A stretch of 24,455 nucleotides of DNA, from positions 1 through 24,455 of the IMG/VR virus record IMGVR_UViG_3300000230_000008. One strand, written 5' to 3'. Under the pieces are notes generated by a model. It searched no databases and had not been told where the DNA came from. It was given only the letters and a program-made list of their open reading frames with translations. The translations under genes were made by a program, and so were the position numbers. Below, one piece after another: positions 21,856-24,455 of the stretch (positions are counted from its first letter, which is position 1; each line of letters begins with the position of its first letter). The DNA comes from a virus.

Positions 21856-22257
21856 ATGAGTTACGACGACGATATTCCATACAGCGAACAGCTTAAAGGT
21901 AAAGACTGGACAAAACAGGCGGAAGCTAACTTATGGGAAATTGCTAATGGGGCAAGAGGTGAGCAAGAAAAACTTGACAAAGAGGGCAATGTTCATTTGC
22001 TTCGGTTTAAAAAAGCTCCTGATCTTGATGCCAATAAATTTATCTTAAAAAATATGTCTAATGGCAAATGGGCTGATAAGATTGAAACTGTGTCAACCCA
22101 GGTTAATGTAAACTTGACAGCAAGTTATAATGAAGTTACTGCTTTGATTGAAAAGCAAAAACAGAAGATTTTGGAAAAGCGTAGACAAGAAGAACTTAAT
22201 GAGATTATTATAGACGTAGAGGATACGCAAAATGACAATGGTAAATCCAACGACTGA
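21856..22257 (+). CDS. Terminase small subunit-like protein
   Basis: This 133-residue acidic protein resembles the C-terminal two thirds of phage small terminases, which recognise packaging sites and regulate the large subunit. The key segment is PDLDANKFILKNMSNGKWADKI, the family's pattern of Leu-Lys-Asn followed by Trp-x-Asp-Lys, then VSTQVNVNLTASYNEV and a charged helix. It lacks an N-terminal HTH; that role may be taken by the separate HTH gene just before. The start ATG immediately follows the upstream stop and has GGAGG. It overlaps the large terminase gene by 26 bases. Confidence 0.7.
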   Translation: MSYDDDIPYSEQLKGKDWTKQAEANLWEIANGARGEQEKLDKEGNVHLLRFKKAPDLDANKFILKNMSNGKWADKIETVSTQVNVNLTASYNEVTALIEKQKQKILEKRRQEELNEIIIDVEDTQNDNGKSND

Positions 22258-24455
22258 GCAAAAAAACCTTTATTCAAGGTTTGCCTATTATCTTAACTGC
22301 CATGGGGGCAGCATGGAGGCAAACGATGCGGTCTATTATGATTTTCTTGATGATGAATTGCTTAGGCATGAAGAGCTTGTGGTGGCGGTAAGCCTATGTA
22401 AGACACTCTACAAGGGTATTGCCTATGTTCTCCATAGAGGCGGACGAGAAGTCGGAGTAAGTGGTGGCGGATTTTATCTAACCAAGAATAGTTTTGATAT
22501 TCTGCACTCGTTGCCTCATGAAATGCTTCCGCAGCCAATGCCTATTGAACTGCCACCTATAATGCCTCTTAAATATGAGCCTTTTAGGCTTGAAGATATT
22601 GACTTAGAACAATTTACTAATTACTTCCCTGAAAAAAACAAGAGAAAAGAGGGGGACGAGTGGACCAAGGATGAACTTGTTGATTTATTGACCAATGAGG
22701 CACATAAGGTTGGTAAAATGTTAGGACCTGGTTATGATTTGCTTGAGGAAATTCATGGCGAGTGGATGCAAGAATGGCTTGTTAATCCTGAAAGCTTTAG
22801 GGTAGTGGTCCATCAGGCGCATCGAGATAGTTACAAGAGCTCGAGCCTTAGGCTCTGCTTGGCTATTTGGCTGATATTGCAACCTCAAAAGACGTTTATT
22901 TTGATTAGAAAGTCGGAAGATGCTGTAAAAGAGCTTATTAATGGTGTCAGTAAAATCCTCGACACTCCATTGTTCCAGAATTTTATAAATATTTTACATC
23001 CTGATGTAGCAAAAAGGGGTGGATTTAAGAAAACTACCGATACAGCTTTGGCTATTGATACAAATTTGAACGTGAGCTTATCGGGGGAATATCAATTAAG
23101 AGCATTGGGGCTTGGTTCTCCTCTGACAGGTAAGCACTCTAGCATAATAGTTACGGACGATATATGCTTCATTGCTGGGACTAAGATAGCGACTCCGTTC
23201 GGTAAAGTAGATATAGAAAAGTTAAAAATAAATGATTTAGTAGTAACTCCTTTTGGTTGCAAAAAAATAAAAAAAGTGATGAACAGAGAAGCTGAAGTCA
23301 TAACAAATGTTGGGTTAACTGGCACTGCCGATCATCCTGTATATAATAAAAATAAAAATCGGTTTGACTTATTGGACATCTCGTGTGATAATGATTTAAG
23401 TAGATTCAATTTGAAGGAGCTGGTCGAATGGAAAATTGCGGAAAAACTATTGAGTGGGATGACAGGGAATGGCAGCGCACTGGAGGAAAGTATTATATCT
23501 TGCGGGCACCTCATGGATCGAGGACTGGAGAGATGCTTCATAGAGCAATATGGAAAAAACATAATGGTGAAATACCTGCCAACCATGTCATACATCATGT
23601 TGACCATAATCCAAGCAATAACAGTATTGAAAATCTTGAGTGCTTACCACTTTATGAACATCAAAAAATGCACATGCTCGAGCGTGTCGAATGGTGTAAG
23701 AAAAATCTTGAAGAAAAAGCTAGGCCAAAACAACTCGAATGGTTGCGCTCTAAGGCAGGGTTGGCAGTATCAATGCAAAATTCTAAAAAAATGCATGAAT
23801 ATTGTAGAAAAAACTTTTACAAAGAAGCAGAATGCTCAAAGTGTGGGGCAATATATAGTACCGACATCAGAAGATCTTCAGGGATGTGCAGAAAGTGTGG
23901 GAAGCAAGAAAACAGTCGGAAGCATTGGCAGAAAAAGAAACTCGAAAACAAAGCAAATACTTGCTATATTGATGTTGAGTGCGTGGAATGTAAAAAGATT
24001 TATAAGACAAATACGGCCACAAGAAATAAAGACGGACTTTGCAAAAACTGTGCAGCACGAAAAAGATATAGAGAAAAAAATCTTTCAAAGGGTTTATAAT
24101 ATCGAGGTCGATGATTGCCATGTCTACTACGCAAACGATGTTTTAGTCCATAATTGTACGACCGCTGATAGGGAGTCAGATGCTGAGCGGAGGGCCACTA
24201 TTTCTAAGTATCAGGAGATGATGAACCTCTTGTCTAACAATAAGGGCTTTAGTGATACTAGAATTATCAACATCGGGACACCTTGGCACGAGGAGGATGT
24301 TTTCTCCTTGATGGAGCGAGGTCTTAAAGAAAAAACTGAAGAACAGAAAAAGCTTGAAGATATTCCAATAAAAGAGAGAAGCCCAGAACAGCATAAAAGG
24401 CTTAGGAAGTTAGATAAAAAAAGAGGTAAATTTGTCTACAACTGCTATGAGACAT
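22232..24455 (+). CDS. terL: Terminase large subunit, intein-containing (partial)
   Basis: This is the ATPase/nuclease motor that packages phage DNA, cut by the window end. The reading frame is open from ATG 22232 (GAGG 9 bases upstream) to base 24455. The N-extein has 311 residues. A degenerate Walker A, AHRDSYKSSSL (about 195-205), matches the HRDSYK-S/T variant of some phage terminases, and Walker B is SIIVTDDI (about 304-311). An intein of 330 residues (23165-24154) follows directly. The C-extein resumes CTTADRESDAERRATI, then IINIGTPWHEEDVF, the coupling motif. The nuclease domain lies beyond the window. Functional terminase requires splicing between Ile311 and the Cys encoded at 24155. 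Confidence 0.9.
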   Translation, partial: MTMVNPTTEQKNLYSRFAYYLNCHGGSMEANDAVYYDFLDDELLRHEELVVAVSLCKTLYKGIAYVLHRGGREVGVSGGGFYLTKNSFDILHSLPHEMLPQPMPIELPPIMPLKYEPFRLEDIDLEQFTNYFPEKNKRKEGDEWTKDELVDLLTNEAHKVGKMLGPGYDLLEEIHGEWMQEWLVNPESFRVVVHQAHRDSYKSSSLRLCLAIWLILQPQKTFILIRKSEDAVKELINGVSKILDTPLFQNFINILHPDVAKRGGFKKTTDTALAIDTNLNVSLSGEYQLRALGLGSPLTGKHSSIIVTDDICFIAGTKIATPFGKVDIEKLKINDLVVTPFGCKKIKKVMNREAEVITNVGLTGTADHPVYNKNKNRFDLLDISCDNDLSRFNLKELVEWKIAEKLLSGMTGNGSALEESIISCGHLMDRGLERCFIEQYGKNIMVKYLPTMSYIMLTIIQAITVLKILSAYHFMNIKKCTCSSVSNGVRKILKKKLGQNNSNGCALRQGWQYQCKILKKCMNIVEKTFTKKQNAQSVGQYIVPTSEDLQGCAESVGSKKTVGSIGRKRNSKTKQILAILMLSAWNVKRFIRQIRPQEIKTDFAKTVQHEKDIEKKIFQRVYNIEVDDCHVYYANDVLVHNCTTADRESDAERRATISKYQEMMNLLSNNKGFSDTRIINIGTPWHEEDVFSLMERGLKEKTEEQKKLEDIPIKERSPEQHKRLRKLDKKRGKFVYNCYET
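23165..24154 (+). mobile_element. Intein in the large terminase, inserted after Walker B
   Basis: This protein-splicing element is 330 residues long. Block A starts with the nucleophile Cys: CFIAGTKIATPFGKVDIEKL. Block B is GLTGTADHP, with Thr54 and His57. Block F is VYNIEVDDCHVYYANDVLV, and the end is His329-Asn330 before the extein Cys. All residues needed for splicing are present. The first 87 and last 21 residues resemble Hint splicing domains; residues 88-312 do not look like any endonuclease in this frame. Instead that stretch is the alternate-frame shadow of an HNH gene (23428-24099), and includes a hydrophobic run around SYIMLTIIQAITVL. No stop codon interrupts the frame. Confidence 0.9.
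23428..24099 (+). CDS. HNH homing endonuclease nested out of frame inside the intein
   Basis: This complete 223-residue gene lies in a frame different from the terminase and intein. Its frame is closed by TAG at 23401-23403, and the first ATG (23428) has AAGGAG 8 bases upstream, so it starts independently. The HNH core is LHRAIWKKHNGEIP, then HVIHHVDHNPSNNSIENL and EHQKMH (His57, Asn65 or Asn69, His78), as in free-standing phage HNH endonucleases. The WCKKNLEEKARPKQLEWL stretch and two Cys4 zinc ribbons (136/139/154/157 and 185/188/205/208) complete the domain order seen in that family. The stop TAA (24097-24099) coincides with the start of intein block F. It probably cuts intein-free terminase genes. 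Confidence 0.9.
   Translation: MENCGKTIEWDDREWQRTGGKYYILRAPHGSRTGEMLHRAIWKKHNGEIPANHVIHHVDHNPSNNSIENLECLPLYEHQKMHMLERVEWCKKNLEEKARPKQLEWLRSKAGLAVSMQNSKKMHEYCRKNFYKEAECSKCGAIYSTDIRRSSGMCRKCGKQENSRKHWQKKKLENKANTCYIDVECVECKKIYKTNTATRNKDGLCKNCAARKRYREKNLSKGL

Follow-up and report, generated by a model that had tools for sequence, protein, structure and literature searches.

In a 24,455-nt stretch of viral DNA (IMG/VR virus record IMGVR_UViG_3300000230_000008, positions 1 to 24,455; hereafter the window), the gene of the terminase large subunit (TerL) contains an intein whose two splicing halves are separated by a long linker, and this linker is overlapped in another reading frame by a complete gene for an HNH endonuclease. 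Very probably, the element is a mini-intein, predicted to splice, that has been overprinted by a homing endonuclease (HEN) of the HNH type, the latter presumably expressed by internal initiation and cleaving as a separate enzyme. The open reading frames (ORFs) and sites concerned are listed below, with the N- and C-terminal splicing halves designated IntN and IntC and the confidence of AlphaFold models given as predicted local distance difference test (pLDDT).

22232-23164, + strand: TerL N-extein, the N-terminal part of the terminase large subunit, ending in the Walker-B-like IIVTDDI at the insertion site (TerL matches in Lactococcus and Enterococcus phages; inteinless relatives contiguous through the site)
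23165-23427, + strand: IntN with blocks A and B (Cys1, T54/H57) plus the start of the linker (weak Hint_2 and Intein_splicing matches; IntN profile 65.5 bits; Cys1, Thr54 and His57 invariant; pLDDT 93-97 over residues 1-70)
23414-23419, + strand: Shine-Dalgarno-like (SD) motif AAGGAG, 8 nt before the HNH start codon ATG (SDs enriched in nested homologues)
23428-24099, + strand: complete HNH endonuclease gene of 223 amino acids with an HNH_3 domain (E = 1.3e-16) and two Cys4 zinc-ribbon-like motifs, in a frame two bases off the intein frame (pLDDT 92.6; purifying selection in relatives)
23428-24096, + strand: the same DNA in the TerL/intein frame, a stop-free linker of about 220 codons at the usual endonuclease position, predicted as disordered (pLDDT about 40-68; exclusion of stops; little conservation beyond that implied by the HNH gene)
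24088-24154, + strand: IntC with blocks F and G (VYNIEVDDCHVYYANDVLVHN; IntC profile 56.6 bits; TIGR01443; pLDDT 96-97)
24155-24455, + strand: TerL C-extein, with the +1 Cys as first residue, running on past the window

The TerL frame opens at 22232 and continues without a stop to the end of the window; over the whole record (50,059 bases) its product comprises 960 amino acids. A few masked or ambiguous bases lie in TerL just past the window edge (24455; about 4457-4500 in L107). The intein occupies 23165-24154 (330 codons), starts with CFIAGTKI, ends with VYNIEVDDCHVYYANDVLVHN and is followed by C. It thus carries the residues of a class 1 intein, i.e. Cys1, Thr54 and His57 of block B, the terminal Asn330 and a +1 Cys. 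The ends are strictly conserved in relatives with the same nested layout: wherever both lie within the contig (77 of 77), the first residue is Cys and the last is Asn, followed by Cys or Ser. AlphaFold modelled the two Hint halves with pLDDT values of 93-97 and the overlapped linker mostly with values of 40-68. The intein model in Foldseek and the intein profile matched solved inteins, including gp41-1 and Prp8, with gp41-1 as the best solved match of the profile. Inteinless TerL homologues (L010-L012) run contiguously from TDDI into V at the site where the window has its insertion. This site, the Walker-B-like VTDDI followed by the intein's C, is common to the window and its nearest sibling, L027; in most nested relatives the insertion lies within the TerL motif DH/CDALRY, at the position of the slash. 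The exteins are terminases, with Terminase_6N present in 36 and Terminase_3 in 23 of the 57 scanned (overlap possible). By every feature tested, the element in the window is an intein, and its frame is continuous, with IntN and IntC in one ORF. An intron carrying an HNH ORF was considered and rejected, as the host frame is open through the insert and an Rfam search of 23000-24400 with a cut-off of E = 1 matched nothing, group I and II intron RNA included.

The preliminary description of this locus had reported a complete HNH gene of 223 amino acids with its own AAGGAG and ATG, out of frame within the TerL intein, and this proved correct. Upstream of its ATG, the HNH frame has no stop until the TAG at 23401-23403. 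Its stop codon, TAA at 24097-24099, was said to lie where block F begins, and indeed it is supplied by the block-F Tyr-Asn codons that it overlaps. In the nested relatives, too, the HNH stop usually falls into conserved residue pairs of block F (TAA in Tyr-Asn; TGA in Tyr-Asp, Phe-Asp, Val-Glu and Val-Asp). The HNH residues H56/H57, N65 and H78 as well as the cysteines are invariant, and the catalytic and zinc residues are conserved in the window. Read in the HNH frame, the DNA that gives a disordered linker in the intein frame yields a model with an overall pLDDT of 92.6. The motif, the conserved residues and the maintenance by selection, the latter measured in relatives as an omega of 0.14 (omega being the ratio of nonsynonymous to synonymous substitution rates, dN/dS), mark the protein as a putative homing endonuclease of the HNH type.

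The intein frame had been described as stop-free across the overlap, where many stops would be expected by chance. As null model, the synonymous codons of the HNH gene were shuffled such that the HNH protein and its codon set were retained, and the stops arising in the intein frame were counted. The window has none against 4.0 expected (P(0) = 0.0014). The openness is hence above chance as claimed, but the anticipated number of stops was too high because the HNH coding had been ignored: a plain base shuffle of the overlap gives 16.7. Taken alone, the open frame of the window is suggestive, not overwhelming, and therefore the relatives decide. Across 87 non-redundant nested copies, not a single stop was present in the intein frame against 187 expected from synonymous shuffles. 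The null model is well calibrated, since split and free-standing homologues, in which the observed and expected numbers were 193/200 and 295/289, respectively, match their expectation. Nested copies also have a lower expected density of stops (1.2 versus about 4 per 100 codons), so that their base composition has shifted as well. In free HNH genes, the frame used for nesting has about one third of the stops of the other shifted frame, and this paucity explains the preference for the frame seen in the window.

A comparison of dN/dS in both frames, proposed in the preliminary description, was made on seven independent close pairs of relatives with 169 differences. It revealed strong constraint in the HNH frame (omega 0.14, 0.09-0.20) and weak constraint in the intein-frame linker (omega 0.64, 0.38-1.10), and no stop was gained in the intein frame across the seven pairs where about 6 were expected. 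A low omega in the HNH frame, a nearly free linker and the exclusion of stops together indicate that the nuclease frame encodes the selected protein. For the window itself, the closest HNH protein is that of L027 (45-47% identical), and the linker-frame identity between the two is 0.32, where HNH coding by itself would give 0.28 (z 1.9). Over 14 other pairs, linker conservation had a mean z of about 1 versus about 0.1-0.3 in controls. Conservation of the linker beyond HNH coding thus appears to be small, and residual synonymous similarity may account for the rest. Two constraints acting on one segment had been postulated; the double constraint stands, but not with equal weight. As judged from these alignments, it is asymmetric: the HNH frame specifies a protein under strong selection, and the chief demand on the intein frame is to remain free of stops.

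Whether phage terminases harbour the same layout elsewhere had been raised as a check. A search of IMG/VR with the window HNH protein alone found no relative, and the scan was performed with an alignment of five nested HNH proteins as query; 80 loci were sorted by HNH, IntN and IntC profiles. Fifty-five had the HNH gene nested out of frame, in 15 it was located between separate IntN and IntC ORFs, 10 were free-standing and none was fused in frame. Because an HNH query could bias the layout counts, a second search used the C-terminus of one nested intein (L082), a query that nevertheless samples only loci related to a nested intein. Among its 80 loci, 68 were nested, 6 were mini-inteins of 126-147 amino acids without endonuclease, 6 were incomplete or split and again none was in frame; 74 were contiguous. 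All retrieved loci, with some contigs counted repeatedly, comprise 194 nested in the window-type frame, 5 nested in the other frame, 34 split, 52 free, 10 partial and 0 in frame. In GenBank, the layout with the HNH gene two bases off was present in the human-gut phage contig MT838676, Acinetobacter phage Highwayman, Rhodobacteraceae phage LS06-2018-MD07 and Tetrasphaera phage TJE1. The layout is therefore not unique to the window but present in dozens of unrelated phages; by these counts it is prevalent in the window's family of phage TerL inteins. As a claim, the existence of the nuclease as a separate gene withstood the stop statistics, the substitution patterns, the structure prediction and this survey of relatives.

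Some loci depart from the common arrangement. In L078, L085, L091, L104 and L134 the HNH gene is nested in the other, normally stop-rich frame, with the intein frame stop-free across it, possibly as independent origins of the same layout. L091, which is among the 55 nested loci of the HNH-based set, has a stop within block A. In 28 non-redundant split TerL loci, including L018, L026, L019, L008, L030, L041, L052, L088 and L115, IntN ends the first ORF, the HNH gene lies between or overlaps and IntC opens the second ORF; these are likely naturally split, i.e. trans-splicing, terminase inteins. An interruption of the intein frame in relatives had been put forward as an argument against the nested reading. 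Relatives of this kind were seen, but they carry IntN and IntC in ORFs of their own and thus represent another solution. In Brochothrix phage BL3 (L019), where the intein frame is interrupted, IntN and IntC enclose a shrunken HNH remnant of about 74 amino acids; the locus is a possible decay intermediate. The mini-inteins lacking a HEN (L238, L240, L241, L252 and L291; 126-147 amino acids) have clean splicing blocks and are near the predicted Hint core of the window in size; their existence implies that the linker is dispensable. A tree of the HNH proteins interleaves nested, split and free forms, with 19 changes, of which at least 4 per group are forced by well-supported branches; poorly resolved, with long branches and giving no direction of change, the tree was used for the interleaving of classes only. 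A lineage whose intein frame is broken thus appears able to persist, either in split form or without the nuclease.

These observations are accommodated by the following scheme. TerL would be translated through the whole insert, and the two Hint halves, of about 85 N-terminal and 28 C-terminal residues, are predicted from sequence and fold to assemble and to splice via the Cys1/Asn/+1Cys pathway. The mini-intein released in this way would include the linker of about 220 residues, disordered and functionally passive. On this mRNA, ribosomes would also start internally at the ATG at 23428 behind AAGGAG, a step consistent with the enrichment of SDs in relatives, and produce a free HNH zinc-ribbon endonuclease. 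During co-infection this enzyme may cut inteinless TerL alleles at the Walker-B codons, and repair would copy the whole insert. Selection would preserve the HNH protein and bar stops from the intein frame, as seen in the comparisons, presumably because a single stop would kill an essential gene. A break in the intein frame would leave a lineage two ways to persist, the split-intein/HNH locus and the HEN-less mini-intein; every one of these states is observed. With two separate polypeptides, the nuclease would be free to act untied from splicing and the linker free to be junk.

An alternative role for the HNH protein is that of a DNA-packaging partner of TerL, nested for co-expression rather than for homing. 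Inteinless TerL relatives sharing 73-82% identity are hard to reconcile with such a partner, as they are uninterrupted at the window's insertion site, have Val at +1 and no HNH gene there. Homologues of the HNH protein do occur free-standing beside TerL, and packaging-associated HNH proteins are described as widespread (Kala et al. 2014, as cited in passages of PMC4422536 and PMC12613952). The nested gene, however, sits exactly in the endonuclease position of the intein at different TerL sites, the only nuclease to match its product among solved structures, if weakly, is the homing enzyme I-HmuI, and HEN-less mini-inteins occur. A packaging role is thus improbable.

With the HNH protein taken as a homing endonuclease, its synthesis could proceed by programmed frameshifting from the intein frame, giving a TerL-N/IntN/HNH fusion, instead of by internal initiation. 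As the HNH frame is open from 23404, ribosomes could in principle shift anywhere from there to 23428. The ideal spacing of AAGGAG and ATG in the window speaks for internal initiation, as does the presence of an SD of at least 4 bases in 30 of 56 nested homologues against 7.7 expected, an enrichment of about fourfold; frameshifting therefore seems unlikely. It is highly improbable that the HNH gene is a decaying relic and the openness of the intein frame a matter of chance: some nested loci, such as L061 and L098, have a partial HNH match only, but the 0 versus 187 stops, the omega of the relatives and the conserved catalytic and zinc residues of the window oppose decay. The idea that sequencing or assembly indels broke an in-frame HNH intein apart can be dismissed, because the layout recurs in independently assembled sequences and in three named phage genomes from GenBank. 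Of the loci retrieved, some of them twice, 194 have the window-type relative frame, 5 have the other and none is in frame.

Several points weigh against an overprinted, homing mini-intein in the window. The Pfam intein match is weak and below the curated cut-off, and it is from the fold and the family profile that the identification draws its support. Since no HNH protein more than 50% identical to that of the window was found, selection was gauged in relatives rather than at the window locus. A recognisable SD is absent from about half of the nested relatives, and splicing, HNH translation and cleavage are deduced rather than directly evidenced.

Classical bifunctional inteins of the PI-SceI type carry an in-frame endonuclease between blocks B and F of the Hint fold. 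The endonuclease of the window occupies the same position, but in a frame offset by 2, and would be a separate polypeptide; as the in-frame fusion is lacking, the element is not a classical bifunctional intein. Fractured genes with split inteins and an endonuclease gene between the halves were reportedly described by Dassa and co-workers in 2009, a study cited in PMC8228797. The split relatives found here, with IntN, HNH and IntC in separate ORFs, share that organisation, whereas the intein of the window is contiguous and overlapped by its endonuclease in another frame.

The general statement that known inteins have their endonuclease fused in frame was too strong, as out-of-frame HNH genes have precedents (PMC4422536; PMC11855218). 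A literature search returned two of them as closest, a remark on brucellaphages from 2015 and the ShiLan element from 2025; a preprint by Gosselin (2025) on actinobacteriophage inteins of "non-canonical architecture" might cover similar cases. In the brucellaphages, as in the window, the TerL gene contains an out-of-frame HNH gene, which was called putatively intein-encoded (Virol J 2015; PMC4422536); compared by description only, the available text of that report gives this as a remark, without analysis of splicing blocks, stop codons or selection. The ShiLan element is likewise an insertion that keeps the host frame open and hides an HNH gene in another frame, but it lacks intein splicing domains, resides in a non-essential host gene and uses a GTG start without SD (PMC11855218), whereas the window has both Hint halves and TerL as host gene.

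The nested layout seems to be a widespread yet hardly described means by which a selfish nuclease gene persists inside an essential one. On balance, we favour the view that these loci form a large class of phage terminase inteins that has so far gone essentially unrecognised. In its members, the endonuclease would as a rule be overprinted two bases out of frame, with its stop usually taken from block-F codons, and the class would interconvert with split-intein/HNH loci and HEN-less mini-inteins. If so, they would represent a de-coupled form of intein, in which the nuclease and the splicing element are separate proteins from one sequence. The nuclease would then be a gene of its own hidden in the intein linker, not an intein domain, and overlooked by ordinary gene calling. 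The family would also serve as a natural system for the evolution of overlapping genes, with built-in controls, as free-standing and split loci harbour members of the same nuclease family. It would further suggest a path between intact and split inteins that can be tested, and protein engineering could draw on its compact TerL mini-inteins and candidate split inteins.

A scan of GTDB genomes added nested cases from a Glycomyces isolate, Bacteroides and Parabacteroides bins, Gemmatimonadales and one Thermoplasmatales metagenome-assembled genome (MAG). The contigs of the Thermoplasmatales archaeon MAG (L157) and of the isolate Glycomyces amatae (L147) that bear the layout are presumably prophages. 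In the GenBank records of phages Highwayman, LS06-2018-MD07 and TJE1 (L003, L004 and L005), only the terminase is annotated and the nested HNH gene was missed.
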